A stretch of DNA of 64,000 bases, taken from the NCBI GenBank assembly GCA_024398135.1, contig CP073750.1, positions 3,472,001 through 3,536,000 on the forward strand, written 5' to 3'. Position 1 is the stretch's first letter. Each line of letters begins with the position of its first letter. This document shows positions 4,724 to 12,740 of the stretch, in pieces. The notes below the pieces were generated by a model, which saw only the letters and a program-made list of their open reading frames with translations, had not been told where the DNA came from and made no database searches. The position numbers and the translations under genes were made by a program. The DNA comes from a bacterium SCSIO 12643 (GTDB lineage Bacteria > Bacteroidota > Bacteroidia > Flavobacteriales_G > Salibacteraceae).

Positions 4724-5012
4724 ATGTTTTAAAACGAAAACCTACTTTTTAAGACGTGATGCCAAAAAAAACTGTAAAAACTATTTTTTTGATATTTTGG
4801 GTTTAAAGTGTTGATGTTGATATGTTTATAAGACTTTTTTAGCTTTTGGGGAATTACAAAAAATACGTATTTACCCTGATACCAAAAGTGCGAACGCCAT
4901 AGTAAATTGCCGCGATTTTATTTGGTGTTGGAGTATCATAGAATAAGTATTTACCACACCATTAAATGAATTAAGAAATAACTGAACAGAACCGAACAAA
5001 CCTGGTGTGACT
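4724..5012 (+). promoter_or_regulatory. Long upstream region of the 5013 gene, with box copy A
   Basis: About 290 nt without a gene. It holds the first copy of a 27-nt box (4861-4887: palindrome AAATACGTATTT then ACCCTGATACCAAAA) and, about 80 nt further, a partial copy AATAAGTATTTACC at 4942-4955 (13 of 14 with the box). The stretch 4801-4832 resembles 5560-5587 upstream of copy B, so the two upstream regions look like diverged duplicates. No TAnnTTTG element stands out; the box may itself be a promoter or activator site. Confidence 0.55.
4861..4887 (+). repeat. 27-nt regulatory box, copy A
   Basis: Identical over 27 nt to 5627-5653 and matching 23 of 27 positions at 12521-12547. It starts with a perfect 12-nt palindrome (AAATACGTATTT) and ends in the conserved GATACCAAAA. 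It lies about 125 nt before the start at 5013. The length and placement suit a binding site for a dimeric regulator. Confidence 0.75.
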
Positions 5013-5474
5013 ATGACGGCACATGCATCTGATCTGAATAAAATACTCAGACATCTTAGAGACCACTATGATGATTCAGTCATGACAACGTTTTATGCGT
5101 TTTATGAATCTGGGTCGATCATTACGAATGCACAAAGAGAAAAACTGGAAAAATTACAGGAAAAACTAATAGCAGACCATAATGTCAAGATAATTTCAAA
5201 CAAAGGCGTATATGGGCCGGAAGGTTTTCCATTTTTAAGCTTAACGCATCAGGGGTTTGATTTTATTCAATCTGGAGGATATAAATTTTATTCATCTATT
5301 TCGAACAACCAAAAAAGAGCAGAACGTTGGATTCGGATTCGGTTTTTATACATAATTCTTCTAGGTATGTTGGCCATTGGATTAGCTTATGTAGCTGTTC
5401 AGAAAATTCTTGAAATTAGAGAGTTAGAAAAGGAGAATGAATTATTAAAAAAGGAATTAAGAAGACAAGAATAA
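5013..5474 (+). CDS. Unknown membrane-anchored protein: possible winged-helix domain, one TM helix, coiled coil
   Basis: 153 aa from the ATG at 5013 (a GTG at 5007 is also possible). Residues 1-90 are helical and then contain FPFLSLTHQGFDFIQSGGY, which resembles the last helix and wing of small winged-helix domains. Residues about 110-133 form one transmembrane helix, and the last 20 residues (EIRELEKENELLKKELRR) are a charged coiled coil. No signal peptide, so the N-terminal domain should be cytoplasmic. I do not recognise the family. It has its own upstream region carrying box copy A and shares that box with the next transcription unit, so it is probably co-regulated with the 5809-8098 genes. 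Confidence 0.7.
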   Translation: MTAHASDLNKILRHLRDHYDDSVMTTFYAFYESGSIITNAQREKLEKLQEKLIADHNVKIISNKGVYGPEGFPFLSLTHQGFDFIQSGGYKFYSSISNNQKRAERWIRIRFLYIILLGMLAIGLAYVAVQKILEIRELEKENELLKKELRRQE

Positions 5475-5808
5475 AACGTAAGTTATTTATTATTAAGTGA
5501 CTATAAGAATGCCGCTGTAGGATACATGTATATTTTTTGATTTTTTTGATGTCACTAGTGTTTAAGGTGTAAGTGGTTGTTTATTAGTGCTATATGTGCT
5601 TAAATGCGTAAAGTCACCAATATAAAAAATACGTATTTACCCTGATACCAAAAACAAAATAAGATGTTTAATTTTAAGGCAGCGAAAAAGAACCGAATTA
5701 AAAGATTTGTTTTTAATATCTAAAAACTAGACTTTTATGAAAATGACAGGATTCGTTTTAAATAAATTTTCAGTCATTTAAACTTAAAACAACCAAACAA
5801 ACATAACC
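5475..5808 (+). promoter_or_regulatory. Long upstream region of the 5809 gene, with box copy B
   Basis: About 330 nt without a convincing gene. It carries box copy B (5627-5653) and the upstream segment 5560-5587 that resembles 4801-4832. A 14-codon reading frame at 5737-5781 (ATG to TAA) could be a leader peptide but nothing else supports it. No terminator is visible after the 5013 gene, so read-through into 5809 is possible. Confidence 0.5.
5627..5653 (+). repeat. 27-nt regulatory box, copy B
   Basis: Exact copy of 4861-4887: AAATACGTATTT palindrome followed by ACCCTGATACCAAAA. It lies 155 nt before the start codon at 5809. Confidence 0.75.
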
Positions 5809-6315
5809 ATGGCGACAATTAATGAACTTACTGAAGACCAGTTTAAAAGTCTCTTAGACGAGTACTTTGCTCCGGCAAGTAAAAGGTCTAAAATGACTGA
5901 TGCAGAGATTAAAGATTTAGCTCAAAGGCTCAATCAAAAGATAAACGTGCCTATTATCAATGAAACAGGAGAAGAGAAAATTCTAATCAAAATTGTGATT
6001 AAAATTGATCGCTTTTTATATGATAATCTTCCGAATGAATTTTATGATTTGGTAAGAAGTCTGGATAAAGGTATTGACGATGAGGAAGCCAAACGCTTAA
6101 TCGTACGTCTATCTAAACTAGCCAATGAAAAAATAAATATTCCCTATTTACCTGAATCCGTTGAATATATAGCCATAAGGTTTGTAATAGGAGTTATTAT
6201 CAACGCAGCAAGAAAGCAATGGGATATGAGCAAGTCTAAAGAAATGGCTTTGGATATGAATATTCCAGCGCATAAAGAAGCATCAGTTGTTGAATTAAAC
6301 CACATGTTAGCTTAA
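5809..6315 (+). CDS. Unknown helical protein with an internal duplication
   Basis: 168 aa, no signal peptide. Two copies of a roughly 45-residue unit can be aligned by eye: residues 29-72 (MTDAEIKDLAQRLNQKINVP, then an amphipathic I/V-rich helix) and 89-134 (IDDEEAKRLIVRLSKLANEK, INIP, then a similar helix). Both have an acidic-start helix, the K-I-N-V/I-P turn and a hydrophobic helix; the second could insert in or touch a membrane. I do not recognise the family. It is 11 nt upstream of the serine-hydrolase gene and surely co-transcribed with it, so it may be a partner, inhibitor or sensor for that enzyme. That role is inference only. Confidence 0.75.
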   Translation: MATINELTEDQFKSLLDEYFAPASKRSKMTDAEIKDLAQRLNQKINVPIINETGEEKILIKIVIKIDRFLYDNLPNEFYDLVRSLDKGIDDEEAKRLIVRLSKLANEKINIPYLPESVEYIAIRFVIGVIINAARKQWDMSKSKEMALDMNIPAHKEASVVELNHMLA

Positions 6316-6326
6316 AAAGATCACCT

Positions 6327-7454
6327 ATGAAAGCACAATTATTTTTTGCAACAAATAGAAACCATCAGGGGAATGATAGGTGGAATCCAACGGGATATGG
6401 CCCAAAATTCAGTAGTGATGGACATTACAATTTGAGATTTGGAGAGTTGACATTAGATATAGATCAAAAGATTGTAGAAAAGCATTTGAACAAGAAATTC
6501 AAATCAGGAAGGGAAGGGGATGGAGAAAGTTTAGCTAATTATTTGACGAAACAAGCACGTCACGCTCATATTAAGGCTTACGAAGATCAAACCGGAAAAA
6601 CAGATCAAGAAATTACATTTGATGATAATTCTTCTACACGTTTTTTCAAGGGTTTAAAAAACTACATGGATCAGACTTCGGATGTCCTGGTATATATGCA
6701 TGGATTTAATGTGTCATGGGATGAGGCAGTAGGTGCAGCATTAGCTATGGAGTTTATGGTGAACCGTAACAATTCTGATGAGGATACAATGATCAAAGTA
6801 GTCTTGTTTTCCTGGCCATCAGATGGAAGTATGATGCCTTTTGCTGCGTACAAATCTGATAGAAGTGATGCACGGGATTCTGCGCAGTCCATTGCGAGAG
6901 GCATTTTAAAGTTGAGAGATTTTTTATATAAAATACATCGATCTTCAGATCAGGAATTACAACCATGTGGGCAATCCATTAGTTTATTGTGCCATTCCAT
7001 GGGAAATTACGTATTACAGAATGCACTAAAGAAAATTATTGGATATTCTAACTCCAGACAAATGCCAAGAGTATTTGATAACCTCTTTATGTGTGCCCCG
7101 GATGTCAATGACAATGTTTTTGAACATGATCAACCAATGGCACAGATTCATGAATTGAGCAATCATATTAGCGTATATTATAATAATGGAGATACAGCAA
7201 TGTATATCTCCGATTTTACTAAAGGAAATACCCAAAGATTAGGACACACAGGTACCGCACGACCACAACTCATACATAACAAAATACATCAAGTAGATTG
7301 TTCACCAATCGTAAAAGGACTGGTTGAGCATAGTTATTATTTATGGGCAACCGTGAATGATGATATTACCATGACCTTAAGAAATGTACCATTTGATGCG
7401 AAATCCAGAGAAAGAAAAAAGCTGGCGAATAGCAGAGAGTGGCAAATGGAATAA
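6327..7454 (+). CDS. Alpha/beta-hydrolase, DUF900-type esterase
   Basis: 375 aa. The sequence VLVYMHGFNVSWDEA (120-134), FSWPSDG (161-167), LLCHSMGNYVL (220-230) and FMCAPDVNDNVF (254-265) are the landmarks of the DUF900 alpha/beta-hydrolases. The predicted triad is Ser224 in C-H-S-M-G (the first Gly of GxSxG is Cys), Asp289 in NNGDT and His335 in VEHSYY. No signal peptide, so it acts in the cytoplasm; substrate unknown. DUF900 enzymes occur in general metabolism and, with partner genes, in some bacterial conflict systems, so the association with three orphan genes is worth attention. It forms a unit with 5809 and, after an 86-nt gap, probably 7541. Confidence 0.85.
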   Translation: MKAQLFFATNRNHQGNDRWNPTGYGPKFSSDGHYNLRFGELTLDIDQKIVEKHLNKKFKSGREGDGESLANYLTKQARHAHIKAYEDQTGKTDQEITFDDNSSTRFFKGLKNYMDQTSDVLVYMHGFNVSWDEAVGAALAMEFMVNRNNSDEDTMIKVVLFSWPSDGSMMPFAAYKSDRSDARDSAQSIARGILKLRDFLYKIHRSSDQELQPCGQSISLLCHSMGNYVLQNALKKIIGYSNSRQMPRVFDNLFMCAPDVNDNVFEHDQPMAQIHELSNHISVYYNNGDTAMYISDFTKGNTQRLGHTGTARPQLIHNKIHQVDCSPIVKGLVEHSYYLWATVNDDITMTLRNVPFDAKSRERKKLANSREWQME

Positions 7455-7540
7455 GGTTTAGGTCTATTTATAGACGAACGTTTAGTACCCGATTTAGTAG
7501 ATCATGCCGGGTTTAGGTTAAATCATTAAACGTAAGTATT

Positions 7541-8098
7541 ATGAGAAAAATTGTTATTATTAATCGCGCTCCTGAGTGGAATATGCGGATGGCTTCAGAA
7601 GCATTTACTGCAGGTTTTTTTGCACGTCTGGGTTATAAAATATCTAAGCCACATGGCATAGAGGACTCCCATTACAATTTCAAAATCACCTTAGATGAAA
7701 ATGAAATTAACGTTGCTGTAAAAGGAAGTCAGGATGGTTTGTGGCGACTTACACAAGATTATGTGACTCGCGGTAAACGAGATTATATTAAAGCTGCAGA
7801 GCGTTGGTTTTCCAGATTTGGACCACATACTATATTTAGTCTGGTACAGTTCAAGGATGTGGAAAAACTGGATGCACCACGGATATATCTGGCAACTCCT
7901 AAAGAAATATTTGAACGTCTCAAAAACTCATCATCCGGTAAAGGTGGTTGTAACCTATATGAGAATAAAGTATGGGTGAAGAAGGCCTCAGGATATGGAA
8001 CTACAGATAAGGTTCCGGAAAACTGGATGATGACTGAGAGTAGGATTAAAAGTTTATGTAAATCTGCTTCGTTATTATTAGAAAAACAAAACGCATAA
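7541..8098 (+). CDS. Unknown protein, possibly a degenerate PD-(D/E)XK-fold nuclease
   Basis: 185 aa, cytoplasmic. Residues 18-70 follow the shape of restriction-endonuclease-like folds: a helix and G-Y (FTAGFFARLGYKI), a loop with Asp42, then a strand ending in VAVKGSQDGLW with Lys61. In active enzymes the residue two before the Lys is D/E; here it is Ala59, so catalysis is uncertain. Later there is a second block with RIYLATPKEIFERL and a conserved-looking YGTTDKVPENW. I do not recognise a named family. The gene follows the hydrolase by 86 nt, a gap that holds small inverted repeats (GTCTAT/ATAGAC at 7462-7475), and ends the orphan module. Confidence 0.65.
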   Translation: MRKIVIINRAPEWNMRMASEAFTAGFFARLGYKISKPHGIEDSHYNFKITLDENEINVAVKGSQDGLWRLTQDYVTRGKRDYIKAAERWFSRFGPHTIFSLVQFKDVEKLDAPRIYLATPKEIFERLKNSSSGKGGCNLYENKVWVKKASGYGTTDKVPENWMMTESRIKSLCKSASLLLEKQNA

Positions 8099-8187
8099 TA
8101 CCAATTTAAAGGTATTTGAAAATGATCAATTAACTTCTAATATTGGGATTTCGTGAAAGGAACAATAATCAACCAATATCAAACCAG

Positions 8188-8859
8188 ATGAAGTTATCTG
8201 AATTTACCGAAGAAGATTTAAAAGAATTAGCTAAACAATTAAGCCAGCCTACTGGAGATATTGGTGTGAAGGTAGCCAATACCATGAATGAAACCAATAT
8301 ATCCATGACATTAAATGCGATAGGTCATTTGGATGTACAAAAAGGCATGCAGGTTTTGGAGATTGGTCATGGAAATTGTCGACATTTGCCCGAAGTGCTT
8401 AACCAGGCAGAAGCAATCCGATATTTTGGATTGGAAATATCGGATTTAATGTATGCCGAAGCTCAGGAAATCAACATCCAATTTATAAAACAAGGGAAAG
8501 CGGAATATCATTTATACGATGGGCAAACGATTCCTTTTGAATCGGATACTTTCCAAAGAATATTCTCAGTGAATACGATATACTTTTGGCAGAACCCAGT
8601 GGCTTTCTTTAAAGAAATATATAGAGTATTAAAACTCGAAGGTAAGGTCTGCATTTGCTTTGTCCATAAAGAATCAATGAAGACGTTACCGTTTACCAAA
8701 TGGGGGTTCGAGTTTTATGATCAGGACAAAATCAAAAATCTAATTGACCAAACGCAATTTGAGATTGAAGCGATTCCAGGTTTTGAAGAACAAGTAACTT
8801 CAAAAGTTGGTGAAAAGGTAAGTCGTAGATTTAATACTTTGATCTTAAGAAAGCGTTAG
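8188..8859 (+). CDS. Class I SAM-dependent methyltransferase
   Basis: 223 aa from ATG 8188; a TTG 45 nt upstream would only add a poorly folded tail. Motif I is VLEIGHGNCRHLP, motif II has the acidic residue in YFGLEIS, and later LYDGQTIPFESDTF and FKEIYRVLKLEGKVCICF correspond to motifs III-IV and the post-motif of Methyltransf_11 small-molecule enzymes. The second Gly of the usual GxGxG is present as G-H-G. Substrate unknown. The stop codon TAG overlaps the stop codon of the convergent gene by sharing the bases TTAG at 8856-8859. Confidence 0.88.
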   Translation: MKLSEFTEEDLKELAKQLSQPTGDIGVKVANTMNETNISMTLNAIGHLDVQKGMQVLEIGHGNCRHLPEVLNQAEAIRYFGLEISDLMYAEAQEINIQFIKQGKAEYHLYDGQTIPFESDTFQRIFSVNTIYFWQNPVAFFKEIYRVLKLEGKVCICFVHKESMKTLPFTKWGFEFYDQDKIKNLIDQTQFEIEAIPGFEEQVTSKVGEKVSRRFNTLILRKR

Positions 8860-9860
8860 ATCATAATTTTCCAAAAGTTGCCGTATTTCTGGGGGACTTT
8901 TTCGATAACCCCATTTGAAACCAGTACTTCTAAGTTTTTTTCAGTTTCATGATCAGATTGAGACAATACAAAAGCAATTTCCCTTGTAGCCATATAACTA
9001 TATTTCTTCAATAGTTCCAGTTCGTTTAATTTGATTTTTTTAGGTTCAATGGTCTCTCCATAAACTTTTTCAAGTGCAGTGATGTAATTTTCGTAAGACG
9101 ACATGCCTGAAATTTTGAGCCCGTTCCCTGTTTCATCAACAAAAATAAATGTTGGAAAACCACGTACACCAAGGTTTCTACCATCCTGAATTTCGGTATA
9201 AAAGGCCTGTGCTGTTAATGGATTATGATAATCCTGTAAAAATTGTGTAGAATCCCCACCACAATCGGTTACAGCTTTAATGAGGTGTACTTCTTTGGTG
9301 ATATTTTTTTTCTCTAGAAAAACCATTTCACGTATTCTTCTTAAAAATTGTAAAGCCAATACATCACTTTGTTTTTGCATGGCTTTTACGGCAATGGACG
9401 GAGGATAAGAAGAGGATAGAGGATCTTGTAACCAAACATCACCGTCAATACTCATTCCCGAGTTTTGACCTACTTCGTCCCAGTGATGCGATACATCCGA
9501 TGGTTTGGATATACCATTTGCTTTATCTGCAAAGCCTTCCCATCCTGGTAATAAACCTCCCATTTTATAGTCAACCTTTACAAAGTCACCATATTCTAAT
9601 TTGAACTTCTTTAATGCTGGTTCGATAGCCCAACAGGCAGAGCAAATAGGATCAGTGTAATAGATCAGAGTTACTTTCTTTGTTTGCGGAATTTGAATTT
9701 CTTCTACGTGATTTTCAACTACGGTATCACAGGTACCTGTTTCTACATCACAGCTGTAAGATTTAGATTGATTTGTCATAGATTTAGTATTTGTTATCGT
9801 GGTATTACAAGCGCTATTAAACGTGAGTAGTAGGAGTACATAAATCCGAAAAATGTTCAT
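8856..9860 (-). CDS. Lipoprotein DsbA-family thiol-disulfide oxidoreductase (FrnE/SpxH-like)
   Basis: 334 aa. An N-terminal hydrophobic stretch ends in FNSAC, a lipobox with Cys18, so the mature protein should be a periplasmic or outer-membrane lipoprotein. The thioredoxin core starts near residue 62, with YYTDPICSACWAIEP carrying the active-site C74-S-A-C77; GVRGFPTFIFV supplies the cis-Pro loop. DPxCxxCWAIEP is the motif of the FrnE/YjbH (SpxH) branch of DsbA proteins, which are normally cytoplasmic, so an exported version is unusual. About 70 C-terminal residues beyond the fold look like a small helical (winged-helix-like) add-on. It is divergent from an HxlR regulator, whose family senses redox stress, which fits a thiol-stress role. 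Confidence 0.85.
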   Translation of the reverse strand: MNIFRIYVLLLLTFNSACNTTITNTKSMTNQSKSYSCDVETGTCDTVVENHVEEIQIPQTKKVTLIYYTDPICSACWAIEPALKKFKLEYGDFVKVDYKMGGLLPGWEGFADKANGISKPSDVSHHWDEVGQNSGMSIDGDVWLQDPLSSSYPPSIAVKAMQKQSDVLALQFLRRIREMVFLEKKNITKEVHLIKAVTDCGGDSTQFLQDYHNPLTAQAFYTEIQDGRNLGVRGFPTFIFVDETGNGLKISGMSSYENYITALEKVYGETIEPKKIKLNELELLKKYSYMATREIAFVLSQSDHETEKNLEVLVSNGVIEKVPQKYGNFWKIMI

Positions 9861-9943
9861 CTATACATGTTTGTTACAAAACAATAATTTAGGTTTGTTT
9901 TATACAAGTAGTCATTTTTTTTAATCCTTAGGTCATTAAATCA

Positions 9944-9951
9944 TACTTTTG
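9944..9951 (+). promoter_or_regulatory. -7 promoter element of the HxlR regulator gene
   Basis: TACTTTTG matches TAnnTTTG and lies 27 nt before the ATG at 9979. No good TTG element is visible 19-22 nt upstream. The short divergent spacer (9861-9978) must also hold the promoter of the minus-strand lipoprotein gene, where I see no clear element. Confidence 0.5.
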
Positions 9952-9978
9952 TTGTTTTTCAAATAAATATAAGCTAAA

Positions 9979-10296
9979 ATGATTAAAAATAAATGTCCAA
10001 TGCGTGAAATTCTTAAGGTGATAGGTGGAAAATGGAAACCACTTATTCTTCAGGAATTGAATGGAGATATCAAGCGTTTTGGAGAATTTCAAAGGTCGAT
10101 CCCGGAGATCACCAAGCAAATGCTCACCAAAAGTTTACGTGAGCTGGAAAGTGAGGGGATTGTGCATAGAAAAGTATATCCGGTGGTTCCACCGAAGGTA
10201 GAATACTCGTTAACAGAATCAGGCAAGTCATTAATTCCAATTTTAGAATTGATGGCTACATGGGGGCAGGATAGATTGTCTCAAAAATCAAATTAG
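9979..10296 (+). CDS. HxlR-family winged-helix transcriptional regulator
   Basis: 105 aa, typical length. The opening KCPMREILKVIGGKWKPLIL is the family hallmark; Cys6 in the C-P motif corresponds to the redox-sensing cysteine of YodB/HypR-type members that sense quinones, diamide or hypochlorite. RFGEFQRSIPEITKQMLTKS is the recognition region and VPPKVEYSLTESGKSLIPIL the wing. It stands head to head with a DsbA-like lipoprotein and 26 nt before an NTF2-like gene, the arrangement expected for local control of both. Cytoplasmic DNA-binding protein. Confidence 0.93.
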   Translation: MIKNKCPMREILKVIGGKWKPLILQELNGDIKRFGEFQRSIPEITKQMLTKSLRELESEGIVHRKVYPVVPPKVEYSLTESGKSLIPILELMATWGQDRLSQKSN

Positions 10297-10322
10297 ATAA
10301 ACAGATTAGAATTAAAGAAACG

Positions 10323-10718
10323 ATGGAGAATCAAAACATTGAAATAATAAAGGATTTATATAAACATTTTGCGGCAGGAAATGGAGCAGAAATAGCCGCT
10401 ATATTCGCTGAGAATATTGAATGGGTTCAAATGAAGGGCTTTCCGGGAGGAGGTCATTTTATTGGATTTAATGATATTGCAAATAATGTATTTAAGGGTT
10501 TTGGAAAAAACTGGACGGATTGGAAAGCATCAGTAGATGAGTTTGTTGATGCAGGAGCAGATGTATTTGTATTTGGTAAATATTCGGGAACATATAAGGA
10601 TACTGGTAAATTTATGGAAGCTGAATTCGTTCATCGATATACCCTCATGGACGGGAAAGTGGAAAGGTTTAAGCAATATACTGATACAAAATTGGTTGCA
10701 GACGCAGTAAGCAGTTAA
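10323..10718 (+). CDS. NTF2/SnoaL-like protein
   Basis: 131 aa. The first helix plus strand (IEIIKDLYKHFAAGNGAEIA, then AEN-IEWV) and the following GGHFIGFNDIANNVF and FVHRYTLMDGKVERFKQYTD follow the cone-shaped NTF2/SnoaL fold, which serves as small isomerase, hydrolase or ligand-binding proteins. There is no signal peptide. It is 26 nt downstream of the HxlR gene, probably the same transcript, so it may help detoxify the compound that HxlR senses. The exact activity is not readable. Confidence 0.85.
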   Translation: MENQNIEIIKDLYKHFAAGNGAEIAAIFAENIEWVQMKGFPGGGHFIGFNDIANNVFKGFGKNWTDWKASVDEFVDAGADVFVFGKYSGTYKDTGKFMEAEFVHRYTLMDGKVERFKQYTDTKLVADAVSS

Positions 10719-10869
10719 AAACAGGTATTTTCCTATTGGTTTAAAAACAGGTAAATTTTCGCTTACCGGGTGTCGAAATCATAAATAAATTGCATGTCAT
10801 AATCAAAGTGATTGATATTTTCTAAGAATCTAAAAGCAGGAGTGAGCTATTTACATATTGGAAATTAAA

Positions 10870-11385
10870 ATGATAGAATTACAAGAATTTACACCCTTAG
10901 ATTTTGACACTTTTATATCCTGGATTAATAACGAGAAAGAGTTGTTTCAATTTGCCGGACCTATTTTTACTTTTCCATTGACGAGAGAACAATTAGAGAA
11001 TTATCTGAAGATGGATGATTTGGTTCCTTTTAAAGTGGTATGGAAAGAAACGAATGAAGTTATAGGGCATTGCGAATTAAACTATCAGAAAGGACATTAT
11101 AGGTTATCCAGAATTTTGATCGGTGATAAATCGTTTAGGGGGCAAAAAATCGGTGAGCAAATTGTGTTTAAAATGGCCGAGAAGTTTTTTGATGACCCAA
11201 AAGTCGATAAGGTTGATTTAAATGTTTTTGATTGGAATTTAGCAGCCATTAAATGTTATGAAAATGCGGGGTTTAAGATAAACCCGTTTTATATACGAAC
11301 GATGCGTGTGACAGGAGATACGTGGGTTAGACTCAATATGGATCTTACTAGAGAAAGATGGAATTCATTAAAAAGCAATTCTTAA
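10870..11385 (+). CDS. GNAT-family N-acetyltransferase
   Basis: 171 aa from ATG 10870; a TTG at 10858 in the same frame is less likely. The acetyl-CoA loop is RILIGDKSFRGQKIGEQIV (R-G-x-K-I-G for the Q/R-x-x-G-x-G/A motif A), followed by DLNVFDWNLAAIKCYENAGF, the usual motif-B end of RimJ-like enzymes. Acceptor unknown. The stop codon lies 1 nt from the stop of the convergent hydrolase gene, so no terminator separates them. Confidence 0.9.
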   Translation: MIELQEFTPLDFDTFISWINNEKELFQFAGPIFTFPLTREQLENYLKMDDLVPFKVVWKETNEVIGHCELNYQKGHYRLSRILIGDKSFRGQKIGEQIVFKMAEKFFDDPKVDKVDLNVFDWNLAAIKCYENAGFKINPFYIRTMRVTGDTWVRLNMDLTRERWNSLKSNS

Positions 11386-11386
11386 A

Positions 11387-12340
11387 TTAGAGCGTATCCA
11401 ACCAGTTTGAAATAGCTTTAAAACTTTCTTCAGGTTGTTCCACCCATGGGAAATGACCAGATTTAGGAAGTAATACTAAAGTCGAGTTTGGTAATTGAGC
11501 ATCTAGCTTTTTTGCAAGCTTAGGAGGATTGTTGGAATCAAATTCACCCTGTAATATAAATGTTGGACATTGAATTTCGTGATAGCGGTTTTGATAGGAA
11601 TGAACTCTGTCAAATAACTTTTGGCGTTCCTCTGATGTTGAAAATGGCGATTGACCATTTATAGTTTTACGTCTGCCAGTTTGAGAAATAAGGTTATAAA
11701 TGGGAATGACCTTTTGCGCACTAGCGGAATCATAACACCACCATTTTATAGGGGCATATGTTAAATCACGACCATTAGAATCCGTTAGAGTTTGAAACTC
11801 GATACGATATTCCCAATCATTAACAACCTGATTAAACCACTGGTTTTGACGTCTTGTATTTTCAAATTCTCGCAGTTCATATAGTTCAGACGGGTTCTGT
11901 TCAACAAAATGAGTACCGCTCAGGATCAATCCTTGAATATGTCCCGGGTATTCAATGGCATATTCCATGGCAATTTCGCTTTGATCAGAGTGTCCAAAAA
12001 TCCATATTTTATCTAATTCAAGGTGCTGTCTAAGTAGGTCAATTTCTTGAATCAAATGATCATATTCATAGTCAGTAACGTGCTTTGGTGCTTCAGATTT
12101 ACCGGTTCCTCGCGGGTCATAATATATCATGGTAAATTGATCTTCTAATTCAGAGAGCGTTTTTTCGTATCCGATTTTACCCGAGTTTAAATGTCCGACA
12201 AACATGGCCGGACCGATACCTTTAATTACGTAGTGAATATCTAAAGAATCAATTTGGGTATGGAAGTTTCCCGATTGAAGTAAGGGATCATTGTTACAAG
12301 CATATATTCCCAACAAGAGTAATAAATAGTAAAATTTCAT
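11387..12340 (-). CDS. Lipoprotein alpha/beta-hydrolase, proline-iminopeptidase-like
   Basis: 317 aa. LLLLLGIYAC is a lipoprotein signal with the lipobox Cys near residue 15, so the enzyme is probably anchored to the envelope. Fold markers: MIYYDPRGTGKSEAP (the oxyanion-side YDxRGxGxS of prolyl iminopeptidases), IWIFGHSDQSEIAMEYA with the nucleophile Ser in G-H-S-D-Q (the last Gly of GxSxG is Gln), the acid in LQGEFDSNNPP and the His in PKSGHFPWVEQPE. The Gln after the nucleophile elbow is unusual but not disabling. Substrate unknown; an aminopeptidase or esterase. Confidence 0.88.
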   Translation of the reverse strand: MKFYYLLLLLGIYACNNDPLLQSGNFHTQIDSLDIHYVIKGIGPAMFVGHLNSGKIGYEKTLSELEDQFTMIYYDPRGTGKSEAPKHVTDYEYDHLIQEIDLLRQHLELDKIWIFGHSDQSEIAMEYAIEYPGHIQGLILSGTHFVEQNPSELYELREFENTRRQNQWFNQVVNDWEYRIEFQTLTDSNGRDLTYAPIKWWCYDSASAQKVIPIYNLISQTGRRKTINGQSPFSTSEERQKLFDRVHSYQNRYHEIQCPTFILQGEFDSNNPPKLAKKLDAQLPNSTLVLLPKSGHFPWVEQPEESFKAISNWLDTL

Positions 12341-12698
12341 TGCGTAAGATCTGGAGTTACGAATTAAATAAAATCACAGGTTAAGCAAAAAAAATCGCTG
12401 GATTCAAATCTTAAATTTTACTAATTCTAGAAGTGTTTTTGATGAGCTAGTTGTAAGTATTTGGAATTTAGAGTCTAAATTCTCCGAATAGATGTTTTAT
12501 TCCGTAATTCTTAAAATAGAAAATACGTGTTTATACGGATACCAAAAGTCACTTTTAGATTTTAGATTGCGAACCATAATTACTTATGTGTGATGCCAAT
12601 TGACATTGGTTAGTTGGTGATTTAAGGCTGCCATTTCGTTTATCCTGCTCTTGTGTTCACAGATGGAGACGAAGGATGAAATTTGAAATAGTAGAATC
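12341..12698. other. Non-coding stretch holding box copy C and a small-RNA candidate
   Basis: About 400 nt between two minus-strand genes with no credible protein-coding frame on either strand. The part 12341-12520 shows nothing clear apart from the A+T-rich upstream region of the lipoprotein hydrolase. Box copy C lies at 12521-12547, and downstream of it a structured segment runs to a terminator at 12699-12740. Confidence 0.6.
12521..12547 (+). repeat. 27-nt regulatory box, copy C (diverged)
   Basis: Matches copies A and B at 23 of 27 positions; differences are at box positions 9, 14, 15 and 17, so the palindrome is AAATACGTGTTT here while the GATACCAAAA end is intact. No protein-coding gene follows in the + direction. 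Confidence 0.65.
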
Positions 12699-12740
12699 AA
12701 AACAAAGTGATGAATTGCCCCACATCACTTTGTTTTTTTT
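12548..12740 (+). ncRNA. Candidate small RNA between box C and a terminator
   Basis: The segment starts after a regulatory box that elsewhere precedes genes and ends at a strong + strand terminator with a run of eight T, although no + strand gene lies before it. Start codons inside open only frames of 5 to 8 codons, or one that runs through the terminator. An internal hairpin CCAAT-TGAC-ATTGG (12596-12609) is visible. Length would be roughly 150-190 nt. A decayed gene that left its promoter box and terminator is the alternative. Confidence 0.4.
12699..12740 (+). terminator. Bidirectional terminator before the SDR gene's 3' end
   Basis: A 14-bp perfect stem (12699-12712 with 12723-12736; core CAAAGTGATG) and a 10-nt loop. 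On the + strand it is followed by a run of eight T, on the minus strand only by four, so it fits a + strand transcript better but also serves the SDR gene that ends at 12745. Confidence 0.85.

Follow-up and report, generated by a model that had tools for sequence, protein, structure and literature searches.

A recurrent box at about twenty promoters of bacterium SCSIO 12643, a candidate activator operator of phage-defence, secreted-protein and small-RNA genes

The regulator NarL recognises the heptamer TACYYMT, and FixJ recognises TACGTA. The joint switching of many unrelated phage-defence systems in bacteria is poorly known; the sole genome-wide case in the literature searched is the Gac/Rsm pathway of Pseudomonas, which controls 4 of 7, 10 of 14 and 6 of 7 of the phage-defence systems detected in three species (PMC11888443). 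At the level of the promoter, a map of transcription start sites in F. psychrophilum gives TAnnTTTG as the sigma-A −7 element of flavobacteria, located at −12 to −5; the text of that study contains neither an ACGTA motif nor a mention of LuxR (PMC9723704).

The window analysed here is a stretch of 64,000 nucleotides from bacterium SCSIO 12643 (assembly GCA_024398135.1, contig CP073750.1, positions 3,472,001 to 3,536,000). An earlier note on this DNA had described three copies of a 27-nt box, and the copies are exactly as claimed: A and B are identical at 27 of 27 nt, and C matches them at 23 of 27 positions (Table 1). All three are present, but the genome (4.1 Mb) holds 19 strong sites in total and a few weaker ones. 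Furthermore, the ending GATACCAAAA ascribed to the box holds for one class of sites, class I, a second class carrying TACGTATTTACCACATTTTTT there. The proposal that the A and B regions are diverged duplicates is weak, the upstream similarity being equalled by 26 of 1000 shuffled pairs. Behind each of the three boxes lies a −7 element at fixed distance, a feature absent from the note.

Searched with up to 3 mismatches across the 4.12-Mb genome, the box pattern gave 10 matches against zero for its reversed control, so the box recurs far beyond chance. Further pattern searches separated two promoter classes, class I with AAA-TACGTRTTTAYNCNGATA and class II with AAA-TACGTRKTTACCACATTTTTT; the pattern matches at 382740 and 3672875 lie inside genes and were discarded. 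A sequence profile was then built from 19 sites. Recovery of all 19 was expected, the profile having been trained on them, and the informative point is the discrete gap below: the 19 sites score E<1e-7, the next match 0.03. Under this gap, real-looking sites (1209251, 90795-90841, 3189187, 2704007-2704031 and 4066405) are mixed with intragenic noise, and two low-ranking matches, 2571729 and 453232, were discarded as lying inside genes. Copies scattered inside coding sequences were looked for and do not occur: credible ORFs contain none of the 19 sites, in spite of an ORF coverage of about 90% in the window, and one site overlaps a 74-codon antisense frame. A co-directional gene start follows 66-297 nt downstream of 17 of the 19; the two exceptions, box C and 3984785, both lead into non-coding stretches.

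The promoter architecture is equally regular. Counting from the T of TACGT, 12 of the 15 class I sites have TAnnTT at +39 and 14 of the 15 retain three or more of its four bases, and all four class II sites have it at +38; the bases between box and −7 element carry little information. Because exact TAnnTT at +39 was also found in 9 of 10 sites picked by the box alone, the fixed spacing does not stem from the search pattern. The minus-strand site 90841, outside the training set, carries TAATTTTA at +38 and lies upstream of a gene for a DNA/RNA non-specific endonuclease. At many sites a second, distal copy, TACGTAGTTACCACA or TACGTATAAACCACA, stands exactly 24 nt upstream. With the −7 element at −12 to −5, the box comes to lie at about −51 to −34, its centre near −42, and the distal copy near −67. 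This layout matches class II activation, in which the activator overlaps the −33 region. Two features of activator-dependent sigma-A promoters, intergenic sites oriented towards gene starts and a fixed −7 spacing, are found, and with them the earlier suggestion of a binding site or promoter co-regulating unrelated units is well supported. Separately, 40-90 nt past the class II box a conserved leader, AAACGTTTRTAGTCGTTTGTAATTA, was noted (genome 3159459-3159504, 3164012-3164057 and the leaders at the 3647254 and 3760916 loci), which may represent an additional promoter or else an RNA element.

Table 1. Boxes, promoter elements and genes (window positions; genome positions where so marked).
Feature	Position	Strand	Remarks
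Box A, class I, AAATACGTATTTACCCTGATACCAAAA	4861..4887	+	profile E=9e-9
−7 element of box A, TAAATTGC	4903..4910	+	39 nt past T of TACGT
Weaker extra box TAAGTATTTACCACA, between promoter A and gene	4944..4958	+	1 mismatch vs TACGTRTTTACCACA
Gene behind box A, 155 aa	5007..5474	+	one predicted membrane segment (by eye), no confident family
Box B, same sequence as box A	5627..5653	+	profile E=1.6e-10
−7 element of box B, TAATTTTA	5669..5676	+	
168-aa orphan, first gene of operon B	5809..6315	+	
DUF900 alpha/beta hydrolase, 375 aa, operon B	6327..7454	+	PF05990 E=7.5e-30
185-aa orphan	7541..8098	+	
Class I-like methyltransferase, 238 aa	8143..8859	+	PF08241 E=1.8e-13; start codon uncertain, ATG at 8188
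Box C, class I variant, AAATACGTGTTTATACGGATACCAAAA	12521..12547	+	profile E=3e-10
−7 element of box C, TAGATTGC	12563..12570	+	
Putative small RNA, ~165 nt, with terminal 14-bp hairpin and T-run	12576..12740	+	MFE -50.6 kcal/mol, z=-4.3, no shuffle as stable
First kinase-regulator operon	genome 1206719-1209121	minus	regulator 1206719-1207381
Second kinase-regulator operon	genome 4066478-4069321	plus	regulator about 4068539-4069321
Two small proteins, ATPase-TOPRIM-like protein, AbiH	genome, site 4012582		PADLOC 2.5e-30 (ATPase-TOPRIM-like); Pfam 1.2e-30 (AbiH)
NACHT-SNaCT9 protein, TmtA	genome, site 3761542		PADLOC 3.8e-294 (TmtA)
Vsr, cytosine methylase (Dcm) matching DrmMII, HATPase protein	genome, sites 3970887, 3970175		2.5e-172 (DrmMII)
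Type II methylase, UvrD/PD-(D/E)XK helicase-nuclease protein	genome, site 3940908		5e-125 (methylase)
615-aa protein	genome, site 442340		C-terminus restriction-type-nuclease-like by eye
Lipase-like protein	genome, site 3647894		
Proteins with T9SS sorting tails	genome, sites 295919, 491967, 3159390		
Metallophosphatase, DUF302 protein, sulfatase	genome, sites 81604-86517		

The genes behind the boxes are diverse. The window's genes had been taken for orphans, which is true in part; operon B holds a recognisable hydrolase and methyltransferase, and targets elsewhere include recognisable phage-defence operons, among them one with TmtA, which from its name we take to be of Tiamat type. No relative of operon B's 168-aa orphan was found in viral contigs, and the plasmid relatives of the DUF900 hydrolase are distant only. 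Weak matches of the same orphan to Cas10b/Cmr2 models (PADLOC 6e-4, NCBIfam 2e-3), far under the cut-off, are probably due to chance. PADLOC matches at E<=1e-15 were obtained for 6 of 44 target proteins and for at most 4 of 101 random genes, corresponding to a one-sided Fisher p=0.044 with several of the 44 genes sharing operons. The families hit among the random genes (ShosA, PsyrA, mad2 and PDC-M51A) suggest by their names housekeeping look-alikes. The enrichment of defence genes among the box targets is suggestive only, and would give the regulon a defence emphasis.

Some of these loci show copying or possible insertion. Site 4017697 heads a copy of the 295919 unit (4.4 kb, two genes of T9SS-sorted proteins, 78% DNA identity), and the box promoter is kept in both copies (genome 4013306-4017714 and 291523-295936). 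Three paralogous orphans of 90-95 aa with no Pfam match occur on the minus strand at genome 3163491, 3647254 and 3760916, each adjoining a class II promoter, or intergenic DNA related to it, and followed by unrelated cargo genes; these loci look like an insertion hotspot.

Box C had been placed ahead of a candidate RNA, and folding makes a structured RNA with a terminator plausible. The 171-nt stretch behind it (z=-4.3) closes with a 14-bp hairpin at 12699-12736 and a T-run to 12739; a consensus terminator scan missed the hairpin, probably because its 10-nt loop exceeds the limit of the scan. A search of Rfam returned sub-threshold matches only, and among 120 relatives no DNA homologue was found beyond short chance matches. 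Behind 3984785, the stretch at genome 3984833-3984944, which runs towards the next gene in convergent orientation, forms a long hairpin (z=-2.8) with no clear terminator and is possibly a second box-driven small RNA. Tandem boxes 23 nt apart at genome 2704008-2704079, with TAGTTTTT at +39 and no co-directional gene ahead, may also head a small RNA.

A survey of relatives gave a patchy picture. The box, and with it the set, is absent from both same-genus genomes examined, and most genomes of the family lack the box too; across 395 genomes of the class, repeated matches occur only in the window's genome and in G079 and G118, from one genus of a different family. Most copies of the G079 box, TACGTAYTTATACGGATA, are followed at 39 nt by a TTNTTTTG/TAnnTTTT-type element, and the genes downstream begin like signal peptides. 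A scan of public genomes with the box gave three matches (two in Nostoc, one in Flavobacterium), which were judged to be chance, their flanks being unlike the promoter layout.

The most palindromic form of the box, TACGTATAAACACGTAT, occurs at three genome positions, 491952, 1209279 and 4066409. At the latter two it lies upstream of operons with equal layout, encoding a small protein, a membrane protein, a histidine kinase and a LuxR-type response regulator, with the regulators 31% and the kinases 29% identical between the two. In the first operon PF00072 (8e-24), PF00196 (GerE, 5e-14) and the kinase domain HATPase_c (4e-7) were detected, so that a kinase is paired with a regulator of receiver and GerE HTH domains as in NarL/FixJ-type systems, and the closest solved relative of this regulator is VraR. 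A box ahead of a regulator's own operon is the usual sign of autoregulation, to which the boxes before both operons point indirectly. On the minus strand, that of the first operon, a clean −7 element is missing at the standard spacing, so the boxes could repress there; in the second, the element at the −7 position is TCTATTTG, which is imperfect.

Taken together, the box is probably the operator of an activator for a regulon of about 20 promoters, and the activator most likely one or both of these paralogous LuxR/NarL-type response regulators, upstream of whose four-gene operons boxes are found. It would bind TACGTRTTTAYNCNGATA or TACGTRKTTACCACA, centred near −42 in the place of a −33 element and often also at a second site, 24 nt further upstream near −67, and would bring ordinary sigma-A RNA polymerase to the TAnnTTTG −7 element at fixed distance. 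One regulon would then unite the small operons of the window and one or more structured small RNAs with phage-defence operons, secreted proteins sorted by the T9SS, and hydrolases, nucleases among them. The analysis directly shows the promoter family with its boxes, spacing, intergenic placement and targets, and the boxes ahead of the two kinase-regulator operons; we infer activation rather than repression, as well as the regulator and the signal behind it. A dedicated regulator, as first suggested, is well supported.

That the box serves an activator of different identity, another LuxR-type protein or a member of a different family (Crp, AraC or OmpR type), is conceivable though rather improbable. 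Over the Pfam cut-off, 22 GerE matches are found in the genome, which holds about 20 other LuxR-type regulators, and the case for the kinase-operon pair draws entirely on the boxes upstream of both operons. Yet two of the three exact palindromic copies precede operons of just this kind, and a patchy distribution among relatives is common to the box and the first regulator. Against the main reading stand the absence of the set from both same-genus genomes and the first regulator's closest relatives in other genomes, which are 32-43% identical and show no box in the 1.5-kb flanks examined, though these flanks may not reach the operon promoters. The two kinase/LuxR-regulator operons provide the best candidates.

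A repressor operator, with promoters blocked until a signal releases the repressor, is unlikely. It would be in line with the perfect palindrome AAATACGTATTT, the overlap with the −33 region and the boxes lacking a standard −7 element at the first kinase operon, but the fixed spacing of 38-39 nt, the missing −33 consensus of the promoters' own and the tandem copies 24 nt apart fit an activator better. The alternative sigma factor entertained in the earlier note is disfavoured to the point of being very improbable. Its upstream element might be seen in GATACC, which class I carries at the −33 position at fixed distance from the −7 element. A −35 and a −10 that both depart from sigma-A in all members were not found: the −7 element is of the sigma-A type TAnnTT(T)G known from F. 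psychrophilum (PMC9723704), class II retains TACGTATTTACC without GATACC, and a second copy 24 nt upstream is activator-like and unlike a sigma element. Scarcely credible, finally, is an origin of the copies from a dispersed mobile repeat or from duplication of intergenic regions, of which they would be remnants, a reading that finds some footing in class II (3159390, 3647894 and 3761542 share up to ~150 nt, partly through the spacers, and two adjoin the same 90-94 aa orphan gene) and in the 4.4-kb copies at 295919 and 4017697, but is largely refuted for class I, where sites resemble one another in box, distal copy and −7 element only and the bases between are random.

On the activator reading, a further and tentative proposal can be made: a two-component system, consisting of two self-controlling paralogous kinase/LuxR-regulator operons, may directly activate, by way of a single operator, several phage-defence operons together with secreted effectors and a small RNA, as a transcriptional counterpart of the Pseudomonas Gac/Rsm pathway. 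If so, the box would be a pointer to unrecognised defence or antagonism genes, and listing the genes behind it could reveal unknown ones, for instance in the orphan operons of the window. The sharp operator and the candidate kinase-regulator pair make the question testable in Bacteroidota.

Compared with described systems, the set shares with flavobacterial sigma-A promoters the TAnnTTTG-type −7 element, and differs in that the box occupies the −33 region (PMC9723704). With NarL/FixJ-type regulons it has in common a candidate with receiver and LuxR-type HTH, TAC-containing half-sites and sites overlapping the −35/−33 region; the exact box, in contrast, was not found in the literature searched by motif, and its binding by the candidates is putative. 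The closest known concept is the Gac/Rsm defence regulon of Pseudomonas (PMC11888443), to which the proposed regulon would be similar in outline, with a two-component pathway and LuxR-type regulator, variable defence and antagonism genes and a small RNA. GacA, however, acts post-transcriptionally via RsmA-binding small RNAs, whereas the present set has a putative direct operator at each promoter.
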